Of a DNA stretch of 37,952 nt, positions 7,656-33,698 are shown in pieces. The stretch spans positions 1 through 37,952 of the forward strand of contig CAKQHU010000002.1 in assembly GCA_934234275.1 (NCBI GenBank), read 5' to 3'. This DNA comes from an uncultured Phascolarctobacterium sp. Its GTDB lineage: Bacteria; Bacillota; Negativicutes; Acidaminococcales; Acidaminococcaceae. Made by a program: the position numbers and the translations under genes. The notes below the pieces were generated by a model. It made no database searches. It worked only from the letters and a program-made list of their open reading frames with translations, and was not told the DNA's origin. Position 1 is the first letter of the stretch, and every line of letters starts with the position of its first letter.

Positions 7656-7680
7656 CCGTTCTGCAGAGTTTTTTGCAGAT
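7656..7680 (+). promoter_or_regulatory. Bipartite element CCG-N16-GCAGAT, copy 1 (before split CARF-HEPN gene)
   Basis: CCG at 7656-7658 and GCAGAT at 7675-7680 are separated by exactly 16 bases. The same pair with the same gap occurs in front of six other rightward units in this window. It lies about 100 bases before the ATG at 7777. It is either a promoter for an alternative sigma factor or an activator site. The rest of 7486-7776 shows no gene. Confidence 0.6.
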
Positions 7681-7776
7681 ATTAACAGTAGAAAGCAGGA
7701 TATTATTCTGCAATGCACAACAATCGCGTTAAAAACGAATTATGCATACTGTTAATTATGGAAGGGAGTTGAAAAT

Positions 7777-7974
7777 ATGCCTAATAATATTGTTATGTTG
7801 TCAATGGGCAGGGAGTGGCAAAGAGAAATCAAATATAAATGTACGAATATGGGAGAGCTATCATGCGTAAGCGGCAGGAGCCGGACGGAGCTTATTATAC
7901 ACTGCTTTTATGAGCTGCTGGCAAAGCAGGAGGTTATGCCGGTAAGATGTTATATCGCGGTGCATAATGCATAG
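7777..7974 (+). pseudogene. N-terminal fragment of a CARF-HEPN protein, cut off by an in-frame TAG
   Basis: The 65 codons begin MPNNIVMLSMG, like the first CARF strand of the two intact paralogues, and have a GGGAG ribosome-binding site. The TAG at 7972-7974 is in the same frame as the 523-codon ORF that follows: no stop lies between 7975 and 8026. The residues just after the TAG, EEEAFRNLKNRF, resemble EQDFLRLCKRFC of the 15077 paralogue. This supports one ancestral gene broken by a nonsense codon rather than two genes. An AGGAGG sequence overlaps the stop and could favour re-initiation. Readthrough or a sequencing error is also possible. Confidence 0.65.
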
Positions 7975-8025
7975 GAGGAAGAGGCCTTTCGTAATTTAAA
8001 AAACAGATTTATCGGTAAGCTCTGT

Positions 8026-9597
8026 TTGATAAGCGTTAAGCTGCAGGAAAGCAAAAATGCCGCGAATGACTATCAGAACGCAATCAGGCTTTTTGATGCA
8101 ATCAACCAAAATAAGGCTATTTATAATGATAATATGATCAGCATGGATATCAGCAGTGCGGATTATCGTCTGTTTATGGATGTCAGCGCTTTGCTCTATG
8201 GTATAGATATGAAAAAAGGCCTTTATATAACGGTTGACAACAAGAAAAGAGAGCTGAGCATAACTGACGGCAGCACAAATACAGCATATTTGCATTATAC
8301 AGTGCAGAAAATGCAGCGGTATCTTAACAGTGATGTTTTAGCGGAGTGTTCCCAAGAGCTGTTTGCGCAAAGTCCCTATATGATGGCCCTGGTTGATATT
8401 TCCAAGAGGCTGAATGATGAAATCAAGCACTGCTGCGCTTATGATAAGATTAAAAATACATTGCTGGAGTTAGGGGATTATTTGAAACAGCATAAGTCAG
8501 CTACTGCTGATAGAAGCTCAGTACCGGTAGTCCATGAGATTGAGAAAAGGTATATGGAGCGTTTGCGGAGGGAATATGCTCCTATTTTGAATACTCGACG
8601 CGGAAATGATAATATACCGGGACTGATCAGATGGTGTCTGAAAAATGATATGACCTTGCAGGCTGTGCTTTTTGCCATCGAGCTGCTGCCGGATTACATG
8701 TTTGCAAGCGGAAAGCTGCAAGTGGAACGGGAAAGAATTTCTGCTTACTGCCAGGCCAGAAACAAAAACTGGCGCAATTGGCGTATTTACTTTTTAAAAG
8801 CCTTTTCTGAGTATGATTATTATATGTCAGCTGTTAAAGCCGGCAATACTACCAAGCTAAGCGAAGCTAATTTCCAAATCATGCGTAAGGCAGGGAGAAA
8901 AAAGAGAATAGACAGACAATCGCGCTTTGATGTGAACCGAGAGGCTTTTAAGGGAATGACGCAGGAGGAGCTGCATTATTTTGCGGAAACAGGCCGTCAT
9001 ATCAGCTATATTGCCTGCAGAGTGCCGCAAGAGCAGACGGAGCTGAAATGTTTTTTAGAGGAGGCGAAAAAATTCATCCGTGCAAATAACAGCTTCAGCT
9101 TTGTAGAGGAGGTGATGGATTTGCCTGCAACAAGCAGCCTGCGTAAGGTTTTGTTATATGGTAATACCATAAACAGCTCGTGGTATTATCTGCAAAGCAA
9201 AATTTCCGAGGATGATTATTGCAACAGTGCCGACAGATTAGTGGTTAACTGCTTGGACGGATTGCCGTCATCCTTGAAACAGAAATGGTTTGGCCTGGAG
9301 CATGAGGTGAGGATTGAGCCGGAGGTTAAGAAAAACAAGGGCAAGCAACAGGAAAATAATGCTCCCATCAATTTACCGCCTGCTAAGGGAAACCGCAGCA
9401 AGCTGTTGCGGAAGCTGCTGGAGCAAGGAGATGTCAGCACGAATATGAATGTGAAAAAGCTGTTTGCGTTTGTTGAATGCTATCAGGAGCTTTTATGTAA
9501 GTATCGCAACCATATGGCCCATTGCGAGCTTGAAAATGCCGACGGCTGGGAGGTTGAGGGACTGCTGCATAAAATGCTGCGATATCTTGAATATTAG
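8026..9597 (+). CDS. CARF-HEPN (Csm6/Csx1-like) RNase, 5'-truncated, degenerate CARF
   Basis: This 523-codon ORF (TTG start at 8026; the frame is open back to 7975) is the body of the gene split at 7974. Its middle, from NIPGLIRWCLKND onward, parallels TIPTLLNWCLRKG in the 15077 protein and ITWCVKQGHLQQA in the 26485 protein. The C-terminus keeps the HEPN catalytic motif RNHMAH (R494, H499). The ligand motif of the CARF fold, DLTGGFR or DMTGGMR in the paralogues, is here MDISSADYR, so cyclic oligoadenylate binding is probably lost. The protein may be a decaying effector, a constitutively active or inhibited RNase, or a partner of the intact paralogues. It ends at the terminator at 9640. Confidence 0.75.
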   Translation: MISVKLQESKNAANDYQNAIRLFDAINQNKAIYNDNMISMDISSADYRLFMDVSALLYGIDMKKGLYITVDNKKRELSITDGSTNTAYLHYTVQKMQRYLNSDVLAECSQELFAQSPYMMALVDISKRLNDEIKHCCAYDKIKNTLLELGDYLKQHKSATADRSSVPVVHEIEKRYMERLRREYAPILNTRRGNDNIPGLIRWCLKNDMTLQAVLFAIELLPDYMFASGKLQVERERISAYCQARNKNWRNWRIYFLKAFSEYDYYMSAVKAGNTTKLSEANFQIMRKAGRKKRIDRQSRFDVNREAFKGMTQEELHYFAETGRHISYIACRVPQEQTELKCFLEEAKKFIRANNSFSFVEEVMDLPATSSLRKVLLYGNTINSSWYYLQSKISEDDYCNSADRLVVNCLDGLPSSLKQKWFGLEHEVRIEPEVKKNKGKQQENNAPINLPPAKGNRSKLLRKLLEQGDVSTNMNVKKLFAFVECYQELLCKYRNHMAHCELENADGWEVEGLLHKMLRYLEY

Positions 9598-9639
9598 AGA
9601 AGTAGGGCAGAGGCGCTGAAAGATGCTTTTGCGCAAACG

Positions 9640-9684
9640 AAAAGACCTGGCGTCCGGAGTAAAATCCGGATTTCAGGTTTTTTT
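9640..9684. terminator. Terminator of the GACCTG family, copy G
   Basis: AAAAGACCTG, GTCCGGA, TCCGGAT and CAGGTTTTTTT form a long hairpin with a T-run. Close relatives occur at 10869, 29071, 30847, 33097 and 36095, each at the leader-distal end of a CRISPR array or relic. It ends the split CARF-HEPN gene. Confidence 0.85.
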
Positions 9685-9714
9685 GCATACCGCAAGCGGT
9701 GTTTGAGCTTCAAC
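9685..9714 (-). CRISPR. Solo degenerate CRISPR repeat (relic)
   Basis: ACCGCAAGCGGT followed by TTTGAGCTTCAAC matches the palindrome and the TTTAAC end of the local CRISPR repeat with several changes. No spacer or intact repeat follows. It directly follows the terminator, as the distal repeats of arrays A-D do. The following stretch to 9750 resembles the decayed leader at 36250-36310. Confidence 0.5.
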
Positions 9715-9752
9715 AGGAAATTTTAACAATATACTAAATATTCATATTATTC

Positions 9753-9878: not shown

Positions 9879-9899
9879 GTTAAGAAGGGAGTTGAAGTA

Positions 9900-10787
9900 A
9901 TGCAAACAAATGAAGCAAGTCAAGAAAGTGAAATCAAGCAGGTCATCCGTAGCCTATGTATGATGAACAACAGGTTTATGAATTTTATGCTTGATGACAA
10001 CAAAGAAGCAGCGCAGGTTTTCTTGCGCATTATTCTGGGAGATGATAAAATTAAGGTGAGGAATGTCAGGATACAAAGCTTTATCCAAAATATTTACGGA
10101 CATTCTTCGCAATTAGACATTCTTGCGCAGGATAGCGAAGGACGCTATTTTAACGTAGAGGTGCAGAGAAGCGATGAAGGCGCTCCGGCAAGACGTGCCA
10201 GATTTTACAGCAGTATTCTCGATACGCATTTCCTGCAGCCAAGTAAGCTTTACGAAGAGTTGCCGGATACTTATGTAATTTTTATCACCGAGAATGATGT
10301 ATTGCGTGACAATTTGCCGTTATATGACATAAGACGAACGATTAAGCAAAGCGCCAAAGATTTTGAAGATGGTTCGCATATCATTTATGTTAATAGTCAG
10401 CGTCGTGATGATACAGCGCTTGGTAAACTGATGCAGGATTTGTATTGCACAGAGCCTAAAAATTTGCATTACCGTGAATTTGCCGAGCGCATGGAGTTTT
10501 TGAAATACAGTAAGGAGGGCGAAGAAAAAATGACTGACGTAATTGAGGAATATGCTGCAAGAAAGGCTGAAGCAGCTGCAAAGGCAGTAGCAAAAGAAGT
10601 AGCAAAAGAGGCTGCAAAGGTAGCGGAAGAAAAAGCTGCGAAGAAAGCAGCTGAAGAAGCACAGAAAAATAGAATTGAACTTGCACAAGGCTTACTGGCA
10701 GATGGCATGAGTATCGAATTTACGGTCCGCCATTCCAAGCTTTCGGAAGCAGAGGTGCGCGAGCTGGCGTCCAAGCTGACAGCATAA
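9900..10787 (+). CDS. Rpn family PD-(D/E)XK nuclease/putative transposase, copy 1
   Basis: This 295-residue protein belongs to the Rpn/PDDEXK_2 family of recombination-promoting nucleases. The catalytic core is seen in LDILAQD followed by YFNVEVQ, the usual D..ExQ form, at about residues 79-98. The N-terminus, IRSLCMMNNRFMNFMLDD, is typical. Residues 220-265 are an Ala/Lys/Glu-rich coiled coil. A GGGAG site precedes the ATG. Copy 2 at 36460 is nearly identical over the first 215 residues and differs mainly in the length and order of the coiled coil. Family members act in DNA cleavage and recombination and some are phage-defence genes; the role here is not shown. It is flanked by CRISPR relics and array A. 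Confidence 0.85.
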   Translation: MQTNEASQESEIKQVIRSLCMMNNRFMNFMLDDNKEAAQVFLRIILGDDKIKVRNVRIQSFIQNIYGHSSQLDILAQDSEGRYFNVEVQRSDEGAPARRARFYSSILDTHFLQPSKLYEELPDTYVIFITENDVLRDNLPLYDIRRTIKQSAKDFEDGSHIIYVNSQRRDDTALGKLMQDLYCTEPKNLHYREFAERMEFLKYSKEGEEKMTDVIEEYAARKAEAAAKAVAKEVAKEAAKVAEEKAAKKAAEEAQKNRIELAQGLLADGMSIEFTVRHSKLSEAEVRELASKLTA

Positions 10788-10800
10788 GAGCATAGCGACA

Positions 10801-10839: not shown

Positions 10840-10868
10840 ATTGAAAACAATATATTTTTATGCAAACG

Positions 10869-10915
10869 AAAAGACCTGAGGTCCGGAGTAAAATCCGGAC
10901 TTCAGGTCTTTTTTT
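10869..10915. terminator. Terminator of the GACCTG family at the distal end of array A
   Basis: AAAAGACCTGA, GTCCGGA, TCCGGAC and TCAGGTCTTTTTTT form a perfect long hairpin flanked by an A-run and a T-run. It can stop both the rightward Rpn transcript and the leftward CRISPR transcript. Confidence 0.9.
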
Positions 10916-10939
10916 GCATACCGCAAGCGGTGGTTAGGC

Positions 10940-11057: not shown

Positions 11058-11303
11058 TTTAAAACGGTAATCAAGCCTTTAACTTGCCTCGGCGCGGTCA
11101 TGGCAATACTGATCGTGAAGTTACAAAACCGCAAGCGGTAATCTAGGCCTTTAACCATGAGGACAGCCATTTATTAGTAAAGACTGCCATTAAGGCAGTT
11201 ACAAAACCGCAAGCGGTAATCTAGGCCTTTAACTGCAGCAACAAAGACCATTCCAACGTTTGACAAGGTTACAAAACCGCAAGCGGTAATCTAGGCCTTT
11301 AAC
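11058..11303 (-). CRISPR. CRISPR array A: three spacers, repeat about 36 nt
   Basis: Intact 36-nt repeats lie at 11120-11155, 11198-11233 and 11268-11303, with a 5'-eroded repeat ending at 11083. On this strand the repeat begins GTTACAAAACCGC and ends GGCCTTTAAC, with the central palindrome ACCGCAAGCGGT. Spacers are 11084-11119 (36 nt), 11156-11197 (42) and 11234-11267 (34). Erosion at the left and an intact repeat against the conserved leader at the right show that the array is read leftwards (minus strand) from the promoter at 11491-11519. cas2-cas1 stand just beyond the leader. The first spacer is homologous to spacers in arrays B and C. Confidence 0.95.
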
Positions 11304-11560
11304 CCTGTGGCTCGCACACGGCTCACAGAGCGGGCTTAAAGCCCTACAATGGAAAATCGAAACGCTGTTTATAGCAAAAACAGCCGATTTACTCACAACA
11401 GCGGTATTTTTCCGCCTCTGCAAAAGTAAAATGCGCTTGGCGCAAGGCTTGCAGGATTTTGGCAAATGATTTGCCTGTTGCGATAAATCTAATATAACAT
11501 ATCGAACAGCTTTTGACAAGTGCTTTCTTAAATTTATCCTATTCTATGCGCCTTACAAGG
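11304..11560 (-). promoter_or_regulatory. Leader of array A with leftward promoter
   Basis: The segment starting CCTGTGGCTCGCAC directly follows the last repeat and is nearly identical beside arrays B and D. On the minus strand TTGTCA (11519-11514) and TATATT (11496-11491) are exactly 17 bases apart, which would give a transcript with about 180 bases of leader before the first repeat. The leader contains hairpins such as GCTGTTT/AAACAGC. Minus-strand ORFs here start inside the promoter and are not genes. Confidence 0.85.
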
Positions 11561-11669
11561 CTTTTGTTAACTATATAAAAACATATTTGCAAACAAAAAG
11601 CGAGTTATCGCAAAATTGGCGCAACATTTGCCGTGGGTGTTTCCTAAAGAATTTTTTATCATTTTCGTG

Positions 11670-11694
11670 CCGGATTTTGCAGTGCGTTGCAGAT
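11670..11694 (+). promoter_or_regulatory. Bipartite element CCG-N16-GCAGAT, copy 2 (before cas2-cas1)
   Basis: CCG (11670-11672) and GCAGAT (11689-11694) are 16 bases apart, about 80 bases before cas2. The element is at the outer end of the conserved leader block and points rightwards, away from the array promoter. Confidence 0.65.
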
Positions 11695-11772
11695 GTATAT
11701 AGTGAGCAGGGAAAAACAAATCAGCGATGCTTGCAGTACAAAGACAAATAATGCAGAAAGAGGTGAGAATGT

Positions 11773-12036
11773 ATGCAGGTTGTAATTTGTTATGATACCG
11801 GCAATGATAAGCTGCGTTACCGACTGGTCAAATATTTGGAGCGCATGGCAGTGCGCATTCAGTACAGTGTTTTTTACGGCGATGTAGAAAAGGCGCAGAT
11901 AGAAAAGCTGCAGCAGTTTGCCGAAATGCTGTTTCAAAGCTACAAGGACGAAGGTGCCAGCCTGCTGGTGTTTCCCATCCGCAATTGCGACTGGAAGAAC
12001 AAACCTAATCTGTCTGCCGATTGTCTTTATATATAA
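11773..12036 (+). CDS. cas2: Cas2, CRISPR adaptation endonuclease
   Basis: The 87-residue protein has the Cas2 ferredoxin-like pattern: a first strand VVICYDTGNDK with the conserved Asp at position 8, then an arginine-rich helix (RYRLVKYLERMAVRIQYSVFYG) whose QYSVFYG strand is the family hallmark. Cas2 dimers bridge two Cas1 dimers to insert new spacers at the leader. AGAGGTG before the ATG is a good ribosome-binding site. It precedes cas1 by 27 bases, the reverse of the more common cas1-cas2 order. Length and motif agree with the family. The unit is probably started from the element at 11670. Confidence 0.93.
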   Translation: MQVVICYDTGNDKLRYRLVKYLERMAVRIQYSVFYGDVEKAQIEKLQQFAEMLFQSYKDEGASLLVFPIRNCDWKNKPNLSADCLYI

Positions 12037-12063
12037 GCTGATTAGTGAAAAAGGAGGAAGAAA

Positions 12064-13080
12064 ATGGCTAAATTGTATTTATCGCAGCCCGGCCTGAAGG
12101 TTAATCTTAATCATGGCAAGTTTATCGTCAGCCTGAACGGTGAAACGCTACATACCGTGCCGGAATTATATGTAGAAGGAATTATTGTTATGGCGCCGGT
12201 GCAGGTAACTTACGCAGTGACTGCGAGCGTGCTGGAGCGTGGCGGTACTATTACCTACCTGGCGCGTAACGGCGATGTGCAGGGCATTTTGGGACTTGAC
12301 GTACAGCAGGGCAGACAGGTGCTGCTGCAGGCCGCAGCACATCTTGATCCTGCAAAGAAGCTGCGGGTGGCACGCGGTATGCTGCAGCGTAAGCTGCAGG
12401 CGCAAAGACAGCTTTTGCTGCGCTATAATAAATCCTTGCATAGCGACGAGCTGACCGAAGCTGCCGAGCGTCTGCAAATGTATGCGGACAGGCTTACGGC
12501 CTGCACCAGCGTCAAAGCAATGCTAGGGGTTGAAGGTACTGCCTCCAAGGAATATTACGACTGCTTTCCGCTGCTGCTGAAAAACAGCGATTACACTTGG
12601 GAAGGACGCAGCCGCCGTCCGCCACGCGACCCGGTGAATTCTATGCTGAGCTTTGCTTACGGATTGGTGGAGCGTGCAGTACAGCTGGAGGTAATGCATG
12701 CAGGGCTCACCTGCGGCATTGGCTTTTTACATGGCGTCAACGATTATAAAAACGGCTTTGTTTACGACGTAATGGAGAGCTTCCGCACGCTGGCGGCAGA
12801 ACGCACCGTTTTCCGCTGTATCAACCGGCGTATTTTTTCGCCCGATGATTTTGACAGGGTGGGAGATGCCTGCTATTTAAGCAGCGATGCGCGCAAGCGT
12901 TTTATTATCCAGTTCAGTGAATGTGCCAGAGAAAAGGGCTTTTACGGCACTAATTTATCCGAAGCAATTAAAAAAGAGCTGCTGTTAATCCGCAAGGACT
13001 TTGGCGATGATACTGTTGATTTTAATGAAGAAAATTTATATGAAAAAGAAAAGGAAGTAGAAACACATGAAAATGCTTAA
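12064..13080 (+). CDS. cas1: Cas1, CRISPR integrase
   Basis: This 338-residue protein is the metal-dependent integrase of spacer acquisition. The catalytic set is present: E157 in GVEGTASKEYY, H223 in GFLHGVNDYK and E238 in DVMESFR. The N-terminal beta domain (1-85) and helical C-terminal domain are complete, and length is normal for Cas1. AGGAGG stands eight bases before the ATG. Its last 14 bases overlap the next gene, so the two are coupled. As the only Cas1 in the window it would serve all four arrays, whose leaders are alike. No fusion to reverse transcriptase or Cas6 is seen. Confidence 0.95.
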   Translation: MAKLYLSQPGLKVNLNHGKFIVSLNGETLHTVPELYVEGIIVMAPVQVTYAVTASVLERGGTITYLARNGDVQGILGLDVQQGRQVLLQAAAHLDPAKKLRVARGMLQRKLQAQRQLLLRYNKSLHSDELTEAAERLQMYADRLTACTSVKAMLGVEGTASKEYYDCFPLLLKNSDYTWEGRSRRPPRDPVNSMLSFAYGLVERAVQLEVMHAGLTCGIGFLHGVNDYKNGFVYDVMESFRTLAAERTVFRCINRRIFSPDDFDRVGDACYLSSDARKRFIIQFSECAREKGFYGTNLSEAIKKELLLIRKDFGDDTVDFNEENLYEKEKEVETHENA

Positions 13081-13399
13081 AAATCTTACACCGCATGAGG
13101 TGAAAATTATAACCGGAGAAGGAACTATTGTAGTAAAGCCATCCGGCGTAGTTGCACGCTGCAATGAGCACGAAGAGCTTGCGAAAGATCTTGCCGGTAT
13201 TCCTGTTATCAGGCTTGTTTTGGGCGAGGTTGTTGACCTGCCGCCGGAGGAGGAGGGTGTTACCCTGATTGTATCCCATATTGTGCTGCAGGCCTGCCCC
13301 AAGCGCAAGGACCTGGTGAAGCCGGGCAAGCCGGTGCGTAATGCCGCCGGTGAAATTATAGGCTGCCTTGGTTTGAGCGTTCTGGGAAACAACAGTTGA
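13067..13399 (+). CDS. Small uncharacterised protein with NLTPHEV start, coupled to cas1
   Basis: The 110-residue protein starts MKMLKNLTPHEVKII and continues with a predicted beta-rich body: VKPSGVVARC, GIPVIRLVLGEV, EGVTLIVSHIVLQAC and a closing AAGEIIGCLGL. I recognise this pattern (NLTPH...PSG.VAR...G.V.DLP...IVS..V) from small hypothetical proteins of phages and bacteria, but I know no function. It overlaps cas1 by 14 bases in another frame, which suggests translational coupling and a shared role. Possibilities are an adaptation accessory or a captured phage protein. It has no CARF, HEPN or nuclease motif that I can see. Confidence 0.7.
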   Translation: MKMLKNLTPHEVKIITGEGTIVVKPSGVVARCNEHEELAKDLAGIPVIRLVLGEVVDLPPEEEGVTLIVSHIVLQACPKRKDLVKPGKPVRNAAGEIIGCLGLSVLGNNS

Positions 13400-14190: not shown

Positions 14191-15084
14191 ATGCGGGAAG
14201 CTGATAAGATAAGGACTGAGCAGCTGGCGGCAGAGATTGCAGCCGGCGGTCTGTCCAAAGAGCGTGAGGAACGAAAAAAGCTGGAGCTTGTAAATATATT
14301 GTGGAACAATCTGTATAAGCCTGCAGATGCTGAAATTGACGGAATTGCTGTTACGGAGGCTTATCAGTCGGCGTTGAATGAATATATGAAGCAAGCGCAG
14401 GCAGGTGCGGAGGATGTTTCCTTCTGCAAAATTTTCTTCGGGTATTATAAAATAAAAACAAGCGGCAATCTGGCAAATAAGCTGAATGAAGCTAATTATG
14501 AGCAGTTCAATGAGCGATTGGTAAAAATGAAGGAGCTTATCGAGCTGATTGGCAAAACAGAAGGTGTGGATTACCGATATTACAAAAATAATCTGCGCTA
14601 TCTTAACAAGGGAAAAATTTTGGCGAAGCTGCGTGAATGGGGCGTAGAAGCAAAATACATGGACGATGTAGAAGAGATTATGCAGTCAGGCGGTCCTGCG
14701 TCAATCGAGGTAATGCGGGAAAATAATCAGGATATAGCTTTGCCTTTCGAGGAGATCGTTTTTGAAAAGCAGGAATTAATTGCCGGCATTATCGGCAGAA
14801 GCTATGCTATCAGCAAGGAGTGCAAGCTTTTTTCCTTGAACCGCTGCGAATGGAGCGGTAATTTATATATAGCATATGACAGTATTATTCCGGAGCTTTT
14901 TGTTATTTATCTGGATGACGGCTATGTTGTATTTTATAAAAAACAGCAGCTTTTGGATATCCTGAATAACGCTTTATTGGGAAAATATCTGCATTTGGCT
15001 GCGGATACTGTGCGTAAAAAACGTAAGATTTTGGAGAAGATTAACCTCCAGGCCGCGAAAGAAGTGACAGAACAAAATGGCTAA
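14191..15084 (+). CDS. Uncharacterised protein, possibly sigma-factor-like DNA-binding regulator
   Basis: The protein has 297 residues from the ATG at 14191, which has AGGTGAT upstream; a GTG at 14182 is an alternative. It is mostly helical by eye. The C-terminus, GKYLHLAADTVRKKRKILEKI (last part near 264-284), resembles the helix-turn-helix of sigma region 4 (the DTVRKKR turn), and the acidic helical N-terminal 60-170 could correspond to region 2. This is motif resemblance only; no clear family match is known to me. It sits between a stand-alone CARF and a CARF-HEPN gene and overlaps the latter by 8 bases. If it is sigma-like, the seven shared CCG-N16-GCAGAT elements would be natural targets. 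A structural adaptor is an alternative. Confidence 0.5.
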   Translation: MREADKIRTEQLAAEIAAGGLSKEREERKKLELVNILWNNLYKPADAEIDGIAVTEAYQSALNEYMKQAQAGAEDVSFCKIFFGYYKIKTSGNLANKLNEANYEQFNERLVKMKELIELIGKTEGVDYRYYKNNLRYLNKGKILAKLREWGVEAKYMDDVEEIMQSGGPASIEVMRENNQDIALPFEEIVFEKQELIAGIIGRSYAISKECKLFSLNRCEWSGNLYIAYDSIIPELFVIYLDDGYVVFYKKQQLLDILNNALLGKYLHLAADTVRKKRKILEKINLQAAKEVTEQNG

Positions 15085-16774: not shown

Positions 16775-16792
16775 AATAATGATGTTAAAATA

Positions 16793-16817
16793 CCGTTTGA
16801 GGATATTTTTCGCAGAT
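16793..16817 (+). promoter_or_regulatory. Bipartite element CCG-N16-GCAGAT, copy 3 (before the cas10 operon)
   Basis: CCG (16793-16795) and GCAGAT (16812-16817) are 16 bases apart. The element lies 38 bases before the start of the 18-codon ORF and is followed by ATATATAGTGAAAG. There is no CRISPR leader here, so the element exists independently of leaders. Confidence 0.65.
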
Positions 16818-16854
16818 ATATATAGTGAAAGTGCTATATAAGGAGGTGCGTAAA

Positions 16855-16911
16855 ATGTCTGAACAGACTCTTTTAGAGTTTTATGTAGAATGGTTAAATA
16901 AGTATTTGTAA
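16855..16911 (+). CDS. 18-codon ORF upstream of cas10
   Basis: The peptide MSEQTLLEFYVEWLNKYL starts with ATG eight bases after a perfect AGGAGGTG ribosome-binding site, better than most sites in the window. It ends 36 bases before cas10. It is the first ORF of the effector operon. It may be a leader peptide that tunes cas10 translation, or a small subunit; it is predicted helical and amphipathic. It is too short for comparison by eye, so the coding call rests on the ribosome-binding site and position. Confidence 0.5.
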   Translation: MSEQTLLEFYVEWLNKYL

Positions 16912-26446: not shown

Positions 26447-26484
26447 GGATTGAAGAAAATCCTTGACCGATAAGGAGGTTACCG

Positions 26485-28290
26485 ATGAACGCCTTAGAAA
26501 CGAATTTTTTATTACTTTTTTTGAGCAATGGCAGCAAAAAGGCAAGCTGTTATCGGATAAATGATGCAGATGTTATGACCGAGCACAGTAATGAATCGGC
26601 AGTGCGTGAGCTGGCTGCATATTTGCAGGAGCGCTCACAGAAGATAGACAAAATCTTTCTCTTTTCCTCACAGGATACCAAAAAGCAGTTAACAGGCACC
26701 GATATGACAACAGTGGATTTTTTTGCGAGCAGAATTAAAGAAATTGTGCCGGCGGAAAATATAATCATTGTTGATTATGATGAAAACAATTCTATTGATA
26801 GATCTTTGTCTGATATCGGTAATATGGGCACAATCATTCTGTCTGAGGCAAAAAAAATCCAAAGGGAACAAGGTACTGCCGGTAATATAACTATTCATGC
26901 GGATATGACCGGCGGTATGCGTAATGCCAGCATGATGATGCTGGGAGTTATGCGTTTGTTGAACTTTAGCGGCCTGCAGATGGGCAGGATTTTGTATTCG
27001 AATTTTTCATTTAACAGAAAGATAAATTTTGTAGAGGATTCGCAGGATGTATACCGCTTTTTTGATTTGGTTGCGGGTGCTACGGAATTTGCCAAATATG
27101 GCAGTGTTGAAAAGCTGGCTGATTATTATAATATTGATATTTATGAGCAAAAGCCTTATACAGCCGAATGCGGTCTGAACCGCGAGCTGTATGAGCTGGT
27201 GAACGCTATGGGATATTTTGCCCAAAGCATCAAGCTGTGCCGTTATGGTGAGCTGCAGGATGCCTGTGCGTTGCTGGCTGAAAAAATGCAGGCGTTTACC
27301 AATCAGGAGCGTTGGAATTATGATGCTAATGACAAGCTTTTTGAAGTGTTATTGCCTACAATCAAGGAATCATACAAAACTGTATTATCTGCACATGATG
27401 ATCTGGATATTATAACCTGGTGCGTTAAGCAAGGGCATTTGCAGCAGGCGATGACGCTTTATACCGAACGTGTGCCGGAATTTATTGCCAAGCAAGGCTT
27501 TTATACTCTGGATGCAGCAACCGCCAAGGAAATAAACAAAAAGGTGAAGAACGAGGAGATTTCTGCTGCCAATTATCTTTTATGTGTTTGGGGTAAGGAC
27601 GTAGATAAAAGAGAGGATATACAGGTATTTTTTAAGCGCGCACTGAAGCAGCCTCTTGCTCTTCTGAAGCAATATAAAACTGCAGATGATGCGGAAGTAG
27701 AGCAACAGCTGGAGAATTTGCAAAAGGATATCGATGCTCAAAACTACTTTATTACCTTTGATAAGGATGATTTTAGAAAGGCATTGAGCGAGCTTAAGCA
27801 GATTTTTGCCAATGAGATAACCTATCAGGATATAATCGCCAATAACGATGGCCTTGCAGGACTGTTGAAAAGATATCTTGCTATGGATGAAGAGGACGAT
27901 GCATGGAGAAATGTTGACCTGACGCAGCATATAGCCGGTAATAAACAATTTAAGGCACTTTTGAATAAGCTGTTCAATAGTGCCAAGGAGGAGCAATTAT
28001 ACAGGCTCTTTAATATTGATAAGTTGCCTTATAGGCAGCTTTCGCGCGGGTATCTTTTGCAGTGCGGTATGAAAGCAGGCAAGCTTACAAGCAATTTACA
28101 GGATGATGAAGCGCTGGCAGATATTATCAACAGCTATACTGTTATCCGCATGGCGCGCAATAGCAGTAACCATGCACGTCACGAAAAAGGTGATTCTCCC
28201 AGGGAGATTGAAGAAAAAATTTTGAGCGGTATTTGTGAATTGCGCAAGCAAGCTGCTTACTTAAAAAGTAAGCAGGCAGCAAAGGCGTGA
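26485..28290 (+). CDS. CARF-HEPN ribonuclease (Csm6/Csx1-like), second intact copy
   Basis: The 601-residue protein has a CARF domain with DMTGGMRNASM at 140-150, followed by the LNFSGLQMGRILYSNFS strand, a helical middle that includes IITWCVKQGHLQQAM, and a C-terminal HEPN motif RNSSNH (R558, H563; R-x4-H). It would be an RNase gated by cyclic oligoadenylate. Sequence is well diverged from the 15077 protein, so the two may recognise different ring sizes or RNAs. TAAGGAGG precedes the ATG. It follows the ADP-ribosylglycohydrolase and ends before the terminator at 28337. Confidence 0.85.
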   Translation: MNALETNFLLLFLSNGSKKASCYRINDADVMTEHSNESAVRELAAYLQERSQKIDKIFLFSSQDTKKQLTGTDMTTVDFFASRIKEIVPAENIIIVDYDENNSIDRSLSDIGNMGTIILSEAKKIQREQGTAGNITIHADMTGGMRNASMMMLGVMRLLNFSGLQMGRILYSNFSFNRKINFVEDSQDVYRFFDLVAGATEFAKYGSVEKLADYYNIDIYEQKPYTAECGLNRELYELVNAMGYFAQSIKLCRYGELQDACALLAEKMQAFTNQERWNYDANDKLFEVLLPTIKESYKTVLSAHDDLDIITWCVKQGHLQQAMTLYTERVPEFIAKQGFYTLDAATAKEINKKVKNEEISAANYLLCVWGKDVDKREDIQVFFKRALKQPLALLKQYKTADDAEVEQQLENLQKDIDAQNYFITFDKDDFRKALSELKQIFANEITYQDIIANNDGLAGLLKRYLAMDEEDDAWRNVDLTQHIAGNKQFKALLNKLFNSAKEEQLYRLFNIDKLPYRQLSRGYLLQCGMKAGKLTSNLQDDEALADIINSYTVIRMARNSSNHARHEKGDSPREIEEKILSGICELRKQAAYLKSKQAAKA

Positions 28291-28336
28291 GCATGCGCAG
28301 TAAAGAGAGCGCAGCCGTTTTATAATTGAAAATGAC

Positions 28337-28387: not shown

Positions 28388-28409
28388 GTTGCTTTTTTCG
28401 GATTATGTG

Positions 28410-28434
28410 CCGTTAGGATATATTTTTTGCAGAT
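28410..28434 (+). promoter_or_regulatory. Bipartite element CCG-N16-GCAGAT, copy 4
   Basis: CCG (28410-28412) and GCAGAT (28429-28434) are 16 bases apart, about 108 bases before the gene at 28542. No leader sequence is present here. The intervening sequence, GGATATATTTTTT, resembles GGATATTTTTC of copy 3. Confidence 0.6.
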
Positions 28435-28541
28435 ATATTTATTAAAGGAGGCTTGCAGGCTGAAGCACAAAATTTTGCAATAGTGTTTGGCGCCTAATTC
28501 ATTGATTATAAGACTGATACAAAGAAAGGATGTTGATATTG

Positions 28542-29039
28542 ATGAGAATTGATTTTTACGAGAAGATGAGCAAAAAGCTGGAAGAGGAATTAAACAAGGT
28601 AAGCAGCGGTATTTTAACAGATGAATTTAATGTCGCAGTTGATGAAGCTACGTCACAAAGCGGGGATGAACTTATAGAGAAAATAGCAACGAAGGTGTGG
28701 CATATGGAAGATAAGGAACGTGTGATTGAAGATGATATGAAGCGTCCTGAAAAAATCTCGAATTATAAAGCACAGATATATGCCAATCATTTTGCGCGTG
28801 AAGAAATGGAGGCTATGGAAAAATACCTGCAAATTATGGAAATGCAGATGCGCAGCAGGTTTTTGTTTAAGGATATGGACATGGATATGGTAAGACAAGC
28901 GATTTACAATCCTGTCAAGGGTATCTATTTTGACAAGAATGATGATGTGAAGCCTGAATATGTTGATATTATTATCAATGACTATGCGCAAAGGCTGGAG
29001 GCGGAGACGCTGCTGGGGGAGGAAATGCATTTAATCTGA
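28542..29039 (+). CDS. Uncharacterised acidic protein, paralogue of the gene at 30281
   Basis: I do not recognise the family. The protein has 165 residues from the ATG at 28542; an upstream ATG at 28530 adds MLIL, but the paralogue at 30281 begins MRIDFHEKM, which favours MRIDFYEKM here. It is charged and helical, with a conserved C-terminal block YFDKNDDVKPEYVDIIINDYA and a middle block YANHFAREEMEAMEKYLQI shared with the paralogue. No signal peptide or membrane segment is seen. The gene sits behind a bipartite element like the cas operons, and before array B. This suggests a CRISPR-linked accessory role, but function is unknown. Confidence 0.75.
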   Translation: MRIDFYEKMSKKLEEELNKVSSGILTDEFNVAVDEATSQSGDELIEKIATKVWHMEDKERVIEDDMKRPEKISNYKAQIYANHFAREEMEAMEKYLQIMEMQMRSRFLFKDMDMDMVRQAIYNPVKGIYFDKNDDVKPEYVDIIINDYAQRLEAETLLGEEMHLI

Positions 29040-29070
29040 GGGTGACTATGAAAATTTGATATTGGGCAAC

Positions 29071-29118
29071 AAAAAAGACCTGAGGTCCGGAGTAAAATCC
29101 GGGCTTCAGGTCTTTTTT
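29071..29118. terminator. Terminator of the GACCTG family at the distal end of array B
   Basis: AAAAAAGACCTGA, GTCCGGA, TCCGGGC and TCAGGTCTTTTTT form the hairpin. It separates the convergent gene at 28542 and CRISPR array B. Confidence 0.9.
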
Positions 29119-29761
29119 AATACCGTAAACGGTGGTCAGAGGCTTTAACGTCTTAATGGAGTTGCTTCCGCTATCGGTTCTTGCCTAGCATTACAAAACC
29201 GCAAGCGGTAATCTAGGCCTTTAACTGCCTGGGCGCGGTTATAGTGGCGATGATCGTTAGAAGTTACAAAACCGCAAGCGGTAATCAAGCACAACCCTTC
29301 CGTCTGCTCGCAAAGCTCGCATCCACCTCCCCTTTCAGGGGAGATATAGTAAAAGTTCGCTTAACTTTATATGCTCCCTGCAAGGGAGCTGGCATCGCCG
29401 CAGGCGATGACTGAGGGTTGTTTTTAGCGGTAATTAAGCTTTTAACGTTCGACGGCAACTTCAACTAACTTGCGAACGTTGCGGTGACATCTTCTGGCGT
29501 GAGTTACAAAACCGCAAGCGGTAATCTAGACCTTTAACCAGCAAACCATCTTTATGGTACTATAATCCGGACAGTAACAAAACCGCAAGCGGTAATCTAG
29601 ACCTTTAACGATAAAGGTGTATTCGCCGCCAACAGCAAAGGCAGCAAGATGGTAACAAAACCGCAAGCGGTAATCTAGACCTTTAACAGTCTTCCCAATA
29701 TTTCCAGTTTATCTATTTCTCTCATGTAACAAAACCGCAAGCGGTAATCTAGACCTTTAAC
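29119..29761 (-). CRISPR. CRISPR array B: six spacers, interrupted by a MITE-like element
   Basis: A degenerate distal repeat lies at 29119-29149. Further repeats lie at 29190-29225, 29263-29290 (cut by the element 29291-29421 and resumed at 29422-29446), 29503-29538, 29574-29609, 29652-29687 and 29726-29761. Spacers are 29150-29189 (40 nt), 29226-29262 (37), 29447-29502 (56, unusually long), 29539-29573 (35), 29610-29651 (42) and 29688-29725 (38). Distal repeats begin GTTAC and carry TAGGCC; the three leader-side repeats begin GTAAC and carry TAGACC, so the newer repeats are a variant. The array is read leftwards from the leader at 29762. Confidence 0.95.
29291..29421. repeat. MITE-like palindromic element, copy 2 (131 bp), inside array B
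   Basis: The ends are ACAACCCT and AGGGTTGT as in copy 1, with about 13 extra bases in the middle. The flanks AGCGGTAATCAAGC (left) and AGCGGTAATTAAGC (right) are the same part of the CRISPR repeat, so it either duplicated 14 bases on insertion or was captured between two repeats. Confidence 0.8.
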
Positions 29762-30010
29762 CCTGTGGCTCGCACACGGCTCACAGAGCGGGCTTAAAGC
29801 CCTACAATGGAAAATCGAAACGCTGTTTATAGCAAAAACAGCCGATTTGCTCACAACAGCGGTATTTTCCGCCTCTGCAAAAAGCAAAATGCGCTTGGCG
29901 CAAGGCTTGCAGACTTTTGGCAAATGATTTGCCTGTTGTGATAAATCTACTATAACATATCGAACAGCTTTTGACAAGTGCTTTCTTGAAATTATCCTAT
30001 TCTATGCGTC
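29762..30010 (-). promoter_or_regulatory. Leader of array B with leftward promoter
   Basis: It is nearly identical to leader A. On the minus strand TTGTCA (29977-29972) and TATAGT (29954-29949) are 17 bases apart. Conservation with A and D continues rightwards to the bipartite element. Confidence 0.85.
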
Positions 30011-30126
30011 TTACAAGGATTTTATTCAGCATATAAAAATACATTTGCAAACAAAAAGCAAGTTATCGTAAAATTAGCGCAACATTTGCCGAGGGTGTTT
30101 CCTAAAGATTTTTTTGCCGTTTTGTG

Positions 30127-30151
30127 CCGGATTTTGTTTTGCCTTGCAGAT
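30127..30151 (+). promoter_or_regulatory. Bipartite element CCG-N16-GCAGAT, copy 5
   Basis: CCG (30127-30129) and GCAGAT (30146-30151) are 16 bases apart, followed by GTATAGTGTG. It lies at the outer end of the leader B block, about 130 bases before the gene at 30281. Confidence 0.6.
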
Positions 30152-30280
30152 GTATAGTGTGTAGAAGAAAACAGCAAAGGCAATCGTGTACGCACCATTT
30201 TTACCATGATGATTGCCAATAGGCAGGGTATAATTTAATGGTAAAGTATAAAGAGTGAGAAAAAAAGGGAGTTAATAGTA

Positions 30281-30814
30281 ATGAGAATTGATTTTCACGA
30301 GAAGATGAACCAAAAGCTGGAAGAGGATTTCAATAAGGCTTTGGAAGAAATGTGTGTAGAATGTCATTCAATGGAGGAGTTTGAGTCAGGTGTGGATAAG
30401 GCATTTGCCCAAATGGCAGCTGAAGACAAGGAAGAAATCCAAACGGAAGTATGGCAGATGCCTAGAAGGGAAACAGTAATCAAGGAAGACATGAAGCATC
30501 CGGAAAAGCTGTCGGAGAGCAAGGCGCAGGCTTACGCAAATCACTTCGCACATGAGGAACTGGATGATATGGAAAACTATCTGCAGATTTTGGAGCTGCA
30601 GGCGTGCCGCAGCTTTTTGTTCTGTAATATTGATATGGATGCGGTGAGAAAGGCAATTTTCAATCCTGTTAAGGCTGCGTATTTCGATAAGCATGATTGC
30701 ATAAAGCCGGAATATGTTGACCTTATTATTAATGACTATGCAAAAAAATATGAGATGGAGGAGCTGTTTGATTCGATGGATGACATCGATCCTGATGACT
30801 GTGATAATTATTAA
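30281..30814 (+). CDS. Uncharacterised acidic protein, paralogue of the gene at 28542
   Basis: The 177-residue protein starts MRIDFHEKMNQKLEEDF and shares the YANHFAHEELDDMENYLQI and YFDKHDCIKPEYVDLIINDYA blocks with the 28542 protein. It has a longer acidic tail (DSMDDIDPDDCDNY). GGGAG precedes the ATG. I know no family. It is separated from its paralogue by array B and its leader, so a gene plus array duplication is likely. The bipartite element lies upstream and a GACCTG-family terminator lies 32 bases downstream. The acidic character recalls DNA-mimic or toxin-neutralising proteins, but that is speculation. Confidence 0.75.
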   Translation: MRIDFHEKMNQKLEEDFNKALEEMCVECHSMEEFESGVDKAFAQMAAEDKEEIQTEVWQMPRRETVIKEDMKHPEKLSESKAQAYANHFAHEELDDMENYLQILELQACRSFLFCNIDMDAVRKAIFNPVKAAYFDKHDCIKPEYVDLIINDYAKKYEMEELFDSMDDIDPDDCDNY

Positions 30815-30846
30815 TCTTTAAATCGAAGAAAGAAGCTCTGCAACGC

Positions 30847-30889
30847 AAAAGACCTGAGGTCCGGAGAAAACCGGGCTTCAGGTCTTTTT
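30847..30889. terminator. Terminator of the GACCTG family at the distal end of array C
   Basis: AAAAGACCTGA, GTCCGGA, CCGGGC and TCAGGTCTTTTT form the hairpin between the convergent gene 30281 and array C. Confidence 0.9.
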
Positions 30890-31063
30890 AAATACCGTAA
30901 ACGGTAATCAGGCTTTAACGTTCTTGCCTAGCCATAGTGGTAATGGCAATGATTTTAAGAAAGTAACAAAACCGCAAGCGGTAGTCTGGCCTTTAACTTT
31001 AAGTCCCTTGCGTCTGCCGGTTCCGCCACATCGGGTAACAAAACCGCAAGCGGTAATCAGGTC
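30890..31063 (-). CRISPR. CRISPR array C: two spacers, last repeat truncated
   Basis: A degenerate distal repeat lies at 30890-30919, a 35-nt repeat at 30963-30997 and a shortened one at 31035-31063. Spacers are 30920-30962 (43 nt) and 30998-31034 (37). The distal repeat has ACCGTAAACGGT in place of ACCGCAAGCGGT, which keeps the stem paired by a double change. The leader-side repeat loses its CTTTAAC end where the leader is deleted, so new insertion here is doubtful. The first spacer overlaps in content with spacers of A and B. Confidence 0.9.
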
Positions 31064-31190
31064 ATTTGCCCTTGTAGCAAAGCTTACAGAGCTTTGGCAA
31101 ATTATTTGCCTGTTGCGATAAATTTACTATAGCATATCGAACAGCTTTTGACAAGTGCTTTCCTTAAGTCATATCATTCTATACGCATTG
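31064..31190 (-). promoter_or_regulatory. Shortened leader of array C, promoter kept
   Basis: The part next to the repeats (CCTGTGGCTCG... in the others) is missing and conservation resumes at GGCAAATTATTTGCCTG. The promoter is intact: on the minus strand TTGTCA (31154-31149), 17 bases, TATAGT (31131-31126). Confidence 0.8.
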
Positions 31191-31302
31191 CGGGGATTTT
31201 GTTGACTATATATAAATATATTTTCAAACAGAAAGAGCGTTGCTGCAAAATTAGTGCAGCAATTGCCAAGGGTGTTTCCTGAAATTTTTTTCCCGTGTTG
31301 TG

Positions 31303-31327
31303 CCGGATTTTGTTTTGCGTCGCAGAT
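31303..31327 (+). promoter_or_regulatory. Bipartite element CCG-N16-GCAGAT, copy 6
   Basis: CCG (31303-31305) and GCAGAT (31322-31327) are 16 bases apart, followed by TTATAAAGTGAAGGGG. It stands about 140 bases before the gene at 31470. Confidence 0.6.
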
Positions 31328-31469
31328 TTATAAAGTGAAGGGGAAAGCAAGGCAGTTGCAAGGCACTGCGCACCTTTTTCTCCATGCCGGGTTTAACCTG
31401 ACAGTTTATAATTAGTTTAACAGTTAAGAAAAAAGTAAACTTAGAAGAAGCGAAAGGATGTTGAACATT

Positions 31470-31793
31470 ATGGGAAAATACTATATTGCTGACGAAGAAT
31501 TAAAGGAATTAAGACTTTTAGTCGCTGATTGCAGAAATCGCGGATTCAAGACGAGCTACCAGGTTTCAAAATACATAGTGGATAACAGATTGGGTTACAG
31601 ATACAGTCATATTGCAGGTGATCTTCACTTAAGAAAATCCCATGATAAATGGGTATACAATGGTGGCATTGCTCCGAAGTACTACAGAATGCTCTGCATT
31701 GAATTGGGACTGGGTAATAGACGCAGTAATGCGGAGGTAGAAAAGTTCCGCTCTTATGCGGAGATGGGTCTGTTCGATAATTATGCTGCATAA
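31470..31793 (+). CDS. Uncharacterised small protein, paralogue of the gene at 33839
   Basis: The protein has 107 residues from the ATG at 31470; an ATG at 31458 adds MLNI, but alignment with the paralogue (MAISKYYI) favours MGKYYIADEEL. Conserved blocks are SYQVSKYIVDNRLGY, HIAGDLHLR and GIAPKYYRMLCIELGLGN, and the two proteins end identically (FRSYAEMGLFDNYAA). The middle could be a winged-helix or HTH-like fold (YQVSKYIV..RLGY.Y.HIAGDLHL), which is only a guess. I know no family. It is first in an operon with a membrane protein and a DUF2325-like protein, behind a bipartite element. Confidence 0.75.
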   Translation: MGKYYIADEELKELRLLVADCRNRGFKTSYQVSKYIVDNRLGYRYSHIAGDLHLRKSHDKWVYNGGIAPKYYRMLCIELGLGNRRSNAEVEKFRSYAEMGLFDNYAA

Positions 31794-31822
31794 GCAGCTT
31801 GAATAAATAGGGAGGTGGTGTT

Positions 31823-32203
31823 ATGTTTGGATTTCTTACATTTTTGGGTATTGCCTTTTGCGTTTATAAAATCATTGAAATATGTGAGGCGGATAAGGCA
31901 TACAAAAGAGAGCTGGAAAGAACCAGACCGAGTTGGTATGTGATTGAGAAAAGGCAGAAGCAATTAAAGGAGGCTGAGCGGACAAGACGATACAATAATA
32001 ATGAAATGAATAAGCTTGAGGCTACAAAATACGAATATACGCATGGAGATATTTGGATAAAATTGCCAATAATTGCTTTCGTTCTTGTTATAGCTTATTT
32101 CTGCGCTCCGTTGATTGTGTGCGGACTTATGATTTTGGTTATTATTCTGATAATCAACACTTTTGATATCGGCGGTAGCGGAGGAAGGAAAGGAAGAGGA
32201 TAA
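31823..32203 (+). CDS. Small membrane protein with coiled-coil middle
   Basis: The 126-residue protein has an N-terminal membrane segment (2-20), a highly charged helical stretch (22-75) and a second hydrophobic region (79-113) long enough for two short or one long membrane pass. It ends with a Gly/Arg tail. GGAGGTG precedes the ATG. No family is recognised. It begins 29 bases after the previous gene and 75 bases before the DUF2325-like gene, so an operon is likely. Membrane proteins in type III loci can be messenger-gated effectors, but no CARF or SAVED domain is visible here. Confidence 0.65.
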   Translation: MFGFLTFLGIAFCVYKIIEICEADKAYKRELERTRPSWYVIEKRQKQLKEAERTRRYNNNEMNKLEATKYEYTHGDIWIKLPIIAFVLVIAYFCAPLIVCGLMILVIILIINTFDIGGSGGRKGRG

Positions 32204-32278
32204 AAGCAACTCTGCGTCCGGAGAAAATTCTCCCGAAACCCCGGTTTTTATGAAAAATACAAGAAAGGTTGTGTAATT

Positions 32279-33010
32279 ATGATTACAGCAAAAGAAACTT
32301 ATATGAAGAAAATGGATGGCAAAGAAAACATGCCTGTGTTGGAAATAAGCTATATTGTTAACACCGGCGGAGGCTTTGCCGACGGAAAGCAGGAAGCGCA
32401 GCGCGATGAAGCAATACGCATGCTGAAGGCCAAGAATGCGGATTTGAGCGGCATCATAGACCAGAAGCAGAGTGAGCTTACTACGCTGCATGCTGAATAT
32501 GAGCATTTGCAGTATGCTTCGGCAAAGGAAATTGATGCGCTACAGGCAGAATTAGAGGAGCAAAAACAGCTGGTGGAGGAAATATTGCAAGACAACGAGA
32601 TGCTGCGGCAGCTTAACGCAAGATCGGAGGAAAGAATGGATGCGTTGGATACTGCCGAAGAGGAGGTAGAGGAGAGTGCGGCTCTTCCCAACAGCTACGT
32701 TCAGGGAAGGCTGAAAAACCTCAATGTACTGATTATGGGCGGACATCAGGTGTGGCAGAACAGGCTTAAGGAGCTATATCCCGATTTTAAATATCTTGAT
32801 TCTGATAACGTCAATTATGATATCAATATAACGAGAAATGCCGACATTGTTTTCTTCAACACCCTGCATTGCTCGCACACGCTGTATTACAGGATGAAGA
32901 ATAATATCAATAACGGCAGGGATGAAAGGAAGAATAAGGTTGTATATATCAGCAGCAATAACCTGGAGTATTTTAAAGAGATGGTAAGCAAGGCAGCGCT
33001 GGGGAAATAG
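32279..33010 (+). CDS. Coiled-coil protein with C-terminal DUF2325-like domain
   Basis: The 243-residue protein has a long acidic coiled coil at about 40-125 and a C-terminal Rossmann-like segment: LNVLIMGGHQVWQNRLKE, then YLDSDNVNYDINITRNADIVFFNT and KVVYISSNNLEYF. The GGH start followed by an aspartate-bearing strand is typical of DUF2325. That family has no well-established function; binding of a nucleotide-like ligand has been supposed because of the fold. It closes the three-gene operon behind array C and ends before the terminator at 33097. AAAGG lies before the ATG. Confidence 0.7.
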   Translation: MITAKETYMKKMDGKENMPVLEISYIVNTGGGFADGKQEAQRDEAIRMLKAKNADLSGIIDQKQSELTTLHAEYEHLQYASAKEIDALQAELEEQKQLVEEILQDNEMLRQLNARSEERMDALDTAEEEVEESAALPNSYVQGRLKNLNVLIMGGHQVWQNRLKELYPDFKYLDSDNVNYDINITRNADIVFFNTLHCSHTLYYRMKNNINNGRDERKNKVVYISSNNLEYFKEMVSKAALGK

Positions 33011-33096
33011 GATTAACGCTTGGAAAATTATAATTAAATGTAACCGGCGCTTTAGCTGACAGCATAAGAACATAACAATATAATTTTACGCAAACG

Positions 33097-33141
33097 AAAA
33101 TACCTGAGGTCCGGAGTAAAATCCGGGCTTCAGGTATTTTT
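33097..33141. terminator. Terminator of the GACCTG family, with a compensated stem change
   Basis: Here the stem reads AAAATACCTGA...TCAGGTATTTT where the others have AAAAGACC...GGTCTTTT. The G-C pair became T-A on both arms at once, so the pairing is under selection. Confidence 0.9.
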
Positions 33142-33309
33142 GCATACCGAAAACGGTGGTCAGGCACAACCCTTCCGTCTGCTCGCAAAGCTCGCATCCA
33201 CCTCCCCTTTCAGGGGAGATATAGACTTTTATATGCTCCCTGCAAGGGAGCTGGCATCGCCGAAGGCGATGACTGAGGGTTGTTTTTAGCGGTAATCTAG
33301 GCCTTTAAC
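33142..33309 (-). CRISPR. Array D: collapsed array without phage-type spacers
   Basis: A degenerate repeat (ACCGAAAACGGT, 33142-33165), the MITE-like element (33166-33283) and a partial repeat with an intact TAGGCCTTTAAC end (33284-33309) abut a full-length leader. The element occupies the place of a spacer. No ordinary spacer remains. With an intact leader the locus might still accept spacers. Confidence 0.7.
33166..33283. repeat. MITE-like palindromic element, copy 3 (118 bp)
   Basis: It has the same ends and length as copy 1. It is flanked on both sides by pieces of CRISPR repeat. Confidence 0.8.
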
Positions 33310-33560
33310 CCTGTGGCTCGCACACGGCTCACAGAGCGGGCTTAAAGCCCTACAATGGAAAATCGAAACGCTGTTTATAGCAAAAACAGCCGATTTACTC
33401 ACAACAGCGGTATTTTTCCGCCTCTGCAAAAAGCAAAATGCGCTTGGCGCAAGGCTTGCAGGCTTTTGGCAAATGATTTGCCTGTTGCGATAAGTCTACT
33501 ATAACATATCGAACAGCTTTTGACAAGTGCTTTCTTGAAATTATCCTATTCTATGCGTCT
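33310..33560 (-). promoter_or_regulatory. Leader of array D with leftward promoter
   Basis: It is full length and nearly identical to leaders A and B. On the minus strand TTGTCA (33526-33521) and TATAGT (33503-33498) are 17 bases apart. Confidence 0.85.
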
Positions 33561-33673
33561 TGCGGAGCTTTTATTTAGCATATGAAAACTTATTTGCAAA
33601 CAGAAAGCAAGTTATCGCAAAATTAGCGCAACATTTGCCGGGGGTGTTTCATAAAAATTTTTGCCGTTTCGTG

Positions 33674-33698
33674 CCGGATTTTGTATTTCGTTGCAGAT
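33674..33698 (+). promoter_or_regulatory. Bipartite element CCG-N16-GCAGAT, copy 7
   Basis: CCG (33674-33676) and GCAGAT (33693-33698) are 16 bases apart, followed by TTATAAAGTGAAGGGG exactly as in copy 6. It lies about 140 bases before the gene at 33839. Confidence 0.6.

Follow-up and report, generated by a model that had tools for sequence, protein, structure and literature searches.

The type III CRISPR locus in a 37,952-nucleotide stretch of DNA from an uncultured Phascolarctobacterium sp. (contig CAKQHU010000002.1; the whole stretch is called the window below) raises the question of what reads a short element, CCG-N16-GCAGAT, which stands seven times in front of its genes. Our data suggest that the seven elements are probably promoters and that their reader is a sigma-like protein from the same locus, here called X, which is dedicated to them, highly divergent and paired with a stand-alone CARF protein. 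The first-pass annotation of this DNA had offered two readings, a -35/-10 pair recognised by an alternative sigma factor or the site of an activator, common to a locus-wide regulon; as readings of the sequence both are supported and both stand, neither being proven. X, to which that annotation did not point, is new here.

The seven elements

The window, searched on both strands, holds eight matches to CCG-N16-GCAGAT against a mean of 0.32 in 100 shuffled versions (maximum 2). All seven pairs reported earlier (CCG at 7656, 11670, 16793, 28410, 30127, 31303 and 33674) were recovered on the plus strand with a gap of exactly 16 bases. At this spacing the plus strand has all eight matches, whereas any other spacing from 8 to 25 gives 0–1 per strand; the three matches at spacing 26 were traced by eye to a second CCG inside leader copies. 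The eighth match (37867) lies inside the reading frame of the gene starting at 37539 with no TATA behind it, and is therefore probably due to chance.

A longer form of the motif, TGCCG-N16-GCAGAT-N-TATA-N-AG, fits the seven sites with 0, 0, 0, 1, 1, 2 and 2 mismatches and was not found once, at up to two mismatches, in 200 windows simulated with a first-order Markov model. In an alignment of the seven sites with one external site, T (8/8) and G (7/8) precede the CCG, T occupies offset 26 (8/8) and is followed mostly by A-T-A, and AG fills offsets 31–32 (7/8 each). The earlier claim that each element precedes a rightward unit holds at all seven sites, the next rightward gene starting 78–140 bases from the end of GCAGAT (at 16793 a short open reading frame, ORF, intervenes before cas10).

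Sites 11670, 30127, 31303 and 33674 lie in copies of a single leader block (repeat families D1, D4 and D7), so that the independent origins number four rather than seven; with 0.32 expected, the Poisson probability of four is about 3e-4, a figure that leaves the extended positions out of account. That common descent of leaders does not explain sites 7656, 16793 and 28410 is true insofar as these lie outside the leader block in otherwise unrelated DNA, but 16793 and 28410 are still 78% alike over 37 bases (D19). To chance or a common background composition we give almost no credence: CCG-N16-GCAGAT alone does turn up elsewhere, mostly in coding-looking DNA, but the set of seven is disfavoured by the shuffles, and the Markov and cross-genome tests (see below) also speak against it.

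The element might also be a CRISPR leader or mobile-cassette signal involved in adaptation or insertion, its position before genes being a by-product of block duplication. Four of the seven sites stand at the end of the duplicated leader block, and two sites in contig L002 of the related genome G002 follow leader copies (~3887–4313 and 17580–18003, 85% alike over 436 bases, with a candidate site behind each). We nevertheless find this explanation very improbable, as three window sites fall outside the leader block families, no leader block was seen by eye beside the site in genome G037, and all seven sites aim into genes at a short distance.

The sigma-A promoter likeness of the seven sites is no better than that of random stretches. 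A sigma-54 reading (-24/-12), judged by eye, was dropped, GG-N10-GC being present in just three of the seven.

A sigma-like protein paired with CARF

The gene of X (297 amino acids, aa) sits between the stand-alone CARF gene and a CARF-HEPN gene, and its product has no sequence-family match. When the AlphaFold model of X was used in fold searches, sigma factors made up 48 of 50 aligner rows, and for the model of a 23%-identical homologue they made up at least 49 of 50, with modest scores in both cases. It is the modelled fold only that points to a sigma-like nature, and the best reading of X appears to be that of a divergent CRISPR-linked sigma-like factor; because no Sigma70 region 2 or region 4 profile recognises it, we name it sigma-like and do not file it as a sigma-70 member. 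X has 44 close homologues; relatives of X were found in 4 of the 59 related genomes introduced below, and none in phages and plasmids.

The CARF and X genes are paired in 6 of 6 loci, and PADLOC family PDLC01823, to which the window CARF belongs by its best match, is also the best match for the CARF gene beside X in five other X loci. From this pairing and the general role of the CARF family we infer that the stand-alone CARF is the ligand-sensing partner of X; it could instead be a ring nuclease, as a weak Crn1 match (E 0.0035) would allow. In G041 (L101, 226–10188) the CARF-X pair lies behind a Cas10a-type Cas10 (789 aa) with other RAMP-like genes; the window Cas10 is of the Cas10d type, and the pair therefore occurs with different type III subtypes.

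Distribution of the motif

The comparison set consisted of 59 genomes, the family of G002, a genome that contains L002, itself an uncultured Phascolarctobacterium contig. Across them TGCCG-N16-GCAGAT-N-TAT has three matches, two of which (G034, G042) were rejected, lying within ORFs of 911 and 601 aa. The extended motif at up to two mismatches has 33 matches (1 perfect, 32 with two mismatches) against 5 for a reversed-pattern control, and 26 of the 30 matches examined fall in ORFs of at least 129 aa. The sole perfect match, in G037, stands some 200 bases ahead of three genes in the order CARF, X and CARF-HEPN, an operon homologous to that of the window; in these relatives, as far as they can stand in for the window's own genome, the perfect motif is rare. 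A Cas10 profile search finds nothing in G037, although the profile may miss other Cas10 types. As G037 is the closest of the 59 genomes by its TrkA-like gene (80% identity), it is not a distant witness. Two-mismatch matches outside long ORFs were seen in L121 (G031), L128 (G052) and L131 (G057), and no X was found there.

G002 carries a variant form. TGCCG-N15-GCGGAT-ATTTATAAAAG stands ahead of its CARF-X-HEPN-cas10 operon, and two more N15-type sites stand ahead of a 146-aa gene and of a unit comprising a short ORF and a 199-aa gene. The pattern CCG-N15-RCRGAT-N9-AG was composed after these sites were known, so that only its enrichment counts as a test: it has 7 matches in G002 against 2 for the reversed control, three of the seven being in the 21-kb contig L002. 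The other four recur among sister genomes, in five of which the search gave 3 to 5 matches per genome; of these four, all but one fall within ORFs that are 166 aa or longer. A fourth, looser site in L002 (18053, TGCCG-N15-GAAGAT-ATATATAG) stands ahead of a 49-aa ORF, beside a leader copy. The L002 matches to CCG-N16-GCAGAT at 10345, in a 30-base gap that ends at a start codon, and at 6796, inside an ORF, were left uncounted.

Across 78 Cas10 loci (1.27 Mb with 10-kb flanks, L001 and L002 included) the window-type motif has no match with two or fewer mismatches, and the N15 variant occurs three times in L002 and once in L014; the element is therefore not a general type III feature. The motif tracks gene X and not type III systems at large, the two being found together, as motif and CARF-X, in three lineages (the window, G037 and G002).

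This distribution bears on another possible reader, namely a sigma factor or regulator whose gene lies elsewhere in the genome; X would then be an effector that belongs to the CARF operon and is unrelated to the element. Sigma profiles do not recognise X, whose binding to the element is a prediction, and this leaves room for such a reader; each of five tested relatives, however, has two or three Sigma70_r2 genes, yet the perfect motif occurs in one of 59 genomes, that genome is among the four carrying X, and in G002 a divergent X is accompanied by a divergent motif. We regard a reader encoded elsewhere as improbable.

An activator site is unlikely too, but it deserves to be considered in some detail. 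The binding protein would be some other regulator or X itself, acting as an ordinary helix-turn-helix protein. It would recognise TGCCG and TGCAGAT, which form a partial direct repeat with a period of about two helical turns, next to a weak sigma-A -10 (TATAWA) one base downstream. GC(C/A)G repeats are indeed 20 bases apart in 7 of the 8 aligned sites, TATA or a near form follows 26–29 bases past the CCG start, and the sigma-A -35 boxes are poor, as at activated promoters. The two boxes, however, do not make up an inverted repeat, and as a direct repeat they are incomplete; both AlphaFold models favour sigma factors; and the three patterned G002 sites have a box spacing of 15 and also place AG at a distance of 9 rather than 6 from the second box, shifts that are easier to reconcile with an altered specificity of the polymerase than with a sigma-A -10 in a constant place.

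Several points weigh against X as a sigma-like reader of the elements. No Sigma70 family was found among 24 X members at E values up to 1, and hhalign of X against eight sigma factors gave a probability of 0.2%. In the X loci L001, L100 and L101 neither the window-type nor the L002-type motif was recognised, whether by eye or by pattern, and the looser fourth site of L002 retains the shorter distance from the second box to AG.

Proposed mechanism

We infer promoter function of the elements, their binding by X and the control of X by cyclic oligoadenylate via CARF. The promoter would consist of TGCCG as the -35, a 16-base spacer, GCAGAT as the -10, an A+T-rich run and a purine start near AG. 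The type III-D complex would sense foreign RNA and its Cas10 would produce cyclic oligoadenylate; the stand-alone CARF would bind it and alter the activity or availability of X, and X would bring RNA polymerase to the elements, resulting in joint induction of cas2-cas1, the cas10 operon, a CARF-HEPN and the unknown small genes. Element 2 may drive X's own operon too, giving positive feedback; the CARF-X genes lie 1.9 kb from it along the same strand, past cas2-cas1. In G037 and G002 the motif is directly ahead of CARF-X, from which such feedback would follow.

The gene content of the window fits this scheme, with a GGDD motif in Cas10, one CARF and three CARF-HEPN frames, of which one is interrupted by a stop. 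GGDD, at Cas10 positions 309–312, is identical across 15 aligned Cas10 sequences, and cyclic-oligoadenylate synthesis is therefore expected, as a prediction from sequence. By its Cas10d-type Cas10 (PADLOC), separate RAMP genes and Cas6 the locus appears closest to type III-D, a subtype call by best profile match.

A more specific scheme is possible, and we put it forward tentatively. CARF might bind X directly, holding or arming it, which would make a protease-free, cyclic-oligoadenylate-gated sigma switch; one second messenger would switch on a dedicated RNA polymerase holoenzyme acting on cas2-cas1, interference genes and unknown small defence genes. The regulon would then grow by copying of the leader-plus-promoter block ahead of new genes, and CARF-X would move between subtypes. 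This block is present four times, ahead of cas2-cas1 and of small-gene units, two of which open with paralogues, and could be the unit through which genes join the regulon.

Relation to known systems

Sigma outputs of type III CRISPR systems are already known in CalpS and CASP-sigma, both protease-released. Of the systems described so far, CASP-sigma of type III-E comes closest. In the published account (PMC10028731), CASP-sigma of Desulfonema ishimotonii is an ECF sigma factor which Csx30 inhibits until the Csx29 protease, together with Cas7-11, sets it free, and three matches to its motif stand in that locus, at cas1 and at two uncharacterised genes. Infection-triggered transcription would be common to both systems. 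On the same account CASP-sigma is a clear ECF factor by profile, whereas X has no profile match, and its locus has Csx30 and Csx29, whereas the constant neighbour of X is the stand-alone CARF. Csx30/Csx29-type genes were not seen among the ORFs scanned, with no Csx29- or Csx30-specific models applied, and the window has separate RAMP genes and a Cas10 rather than the Cas7-11 fusion without separate Cas10 of type III-E.

CalpS is held by the anti-sigma factor CalpT, which the cA4-activated SAVED-Lon protease CalpL cleaves (excerpts of PMC11417357 and PMC11229360). Cyclic-oligoadenylate type III signalling with a sigma output would be shared with the window as far as those excerpts go, the output in the window being predicted. 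SAVED, Lon and anti-sigma families, however, were absent from 30 window ORFs searched with Pfam and ten with PADLOC (3774–5234 being outside these scans), and in the scanned ORFs the window thus differs from CalpL-CalpT-CalpS. The arrangement of the window would follow the same output logic as CASP-sigma and CalpS, the scanned ORFs showing neither a protease nor an anti-sigma family.

Csa3 has a CARF–helix-turn-helix architecture; in the window the CARF and the DNA-binding-type protein are instead encoded separately, and the likeness of X is to a sigma factor. Csa3 regulates cas gene transcription, with CARF proposed as the sensing domain, in the excerpts of PMC10013973 and PMC4012209.

If the proposed role of X is true, X would represent a third sigma-like family, invisible to profiles, in gut Phascolarctobacterium-type bacteria, accompanied by a stand-alone CARF and a readable motif, and the mode of action of stand-alone CARF proteins would become testable. 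The motif would also mark out the unknown small genes as likely to serve in defence and to be induced on infection. Neither X nor the motif is described in any title or abstract opening listed by our searches of the open-licence PMC literature.

Other features of the locus

Table 1. Elements, genes, arrays and leader blocks of the window, in order of position; mismatches are counted against the extended motif.
Feature	Coordinates	Strand	Basis or remark
Element 1, ahead of CARF-HEPN frame 7777–9597	7654–7688	+	2 mismatches
CARF-HEPN, in-frame stop 7972	7777–9597	+	ORFs 7777–7974 and 8026–9597, one frame; PADLOC CARF2--CARF_HEPN 2e-17 for 8026–9597
CRISPR mini-array 1, leader on right	11120–11303	-	three perfect 36-base repeats
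Leader block copy 1 (D4, D1, D7)	11282–11722		element 2 at right end
Element 2, ahead of cas2-cas1, possibly also CARF-X operon	11668–11702	+	0 mismatches
cas2	11773–12036	+	PF09827 4e-15
cas1	12064–13080	+	PF01867 6e-70
Unk_01, small protein, at times CARF-fused	13067–13399	+	PADLOC PDLC01138 3e-23
Stand-alone CARF, 209 aa	13541–14170	+	PADLOC PDLC01823 CARF2--CARF 9e-66
X, sigma-factor-like, 297 aa	14191–15084	+	ATG 14191, alternative GTG 14182; two AlphaFold models and fold searches
CARF-HEPN, Csx1/Csm6-like	15077–16774	+	PADLOC 7e-76
Element 3 (TACCG), ahead of short ORF and cas10...cas6	16791–16825	+	1 mismatch
Short ORF, 18 codons, between element 3 and cas10	16855–16911	+	AGGAGG in front; sequence reading
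cas10 (GGDD), four RAMP genes, cas6	16948–25418	+	PADLOC Cas10d 5e-114 for Cas10
ADP-ribosylglycohydrolase-like gene and third CARF-HEPN	25589–28290	+	without own element
Element 4, ahead of 169-aa gene	28408–28442	+	2 mismatches
169-aa protein	28530–29039	+	55% identity over 163 aa to 30281–30814 (paralogue)
CRISPR mini-array 2, interrupted, leader on right	29190–29761	-	
Leader block copy 2	29740–30179		
Element 5, ahead of 177-aa gene	30125–30159	+	1 mismatch
177-aa protein	30281–30814	+	marginal Pfam Cytochrom_C match 4e-4 only; no PADLOC match
Leader block copy 3	31042–31355		array remnant 30963–31070 on left
Element 6, ahead of three small genes	31301–31335	+	0 mismatches
Three small genes: 111 aa, 126 aa (membrane-like), 243 aa (coiled-coil-like)	31458–33010	+	membrane and coiled-coil likeness by eye
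Leader block copy 4	33288–33726		
Element 7, ahead of 109-aa gene	33672–33706	+	0 mismatches
109-aa protein	33839–34168	+	77% identity over 107 aa to 31458–31793 (111-aa paralogue)

The locus is flanked on the left by TrkA/TrkH-type potassium-transport genes and on the right by the gene from 37539, which reads like a ketopantoate reductase. The window Cas10 has 88% identity to a Cas10 named Phascolarctobacterium succinatutens; no relatives of Cas10 were found in viral contigs, and in G003 (C22, 6330–7935; L181, L182) a Cas10 match is spread over two frames, the second of which contains two stops. The gene at 22136–22702, inside the cas10...cas6 stretch, is without a Pfam match. The CARF-HEPN gene behind element 1, described earlier as split, does comprise two ORFs, but these belong to one frame interrupted by an in-frame stop. 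Gly/Ala-rich proteins of membrane type, recognised by eye near X (L001 1624–2454, L002 804–1994, L100 2097–3377), are possible effectors, and no motif was recognised ahead of them.

The four leader-block copies have short arrays or array remnants at their left sides. Judging from the leader side and the degenerate left ends, the arrays are probably read leftward and the elements rightward. Several small genes of the locus have no family match or marginal ones; the 169-aa protein has none in Pfam, PADLOC or NCBIfam. The 59 genomes hold no match to the 177-aa protein, a search that had no positive control and shows little.

The Rfam search of the window gave no match. A recurrent hairpin (GACCTGAGGTCCGGAGTAAAATCCGGGCTTCAGGTC plus a T run) lies behind several units of the locus (9615–9706, 10844–10935, 29048–29139, 30839–30911 and 33072–33163) and is probably a shared terminator. 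Most of the locus is bracketed by two much alike PD-(D/E)XK transposase-family genes (9900–10787 and 36460–37332), whose upstream stretches and gene starts are 94–97% alike.

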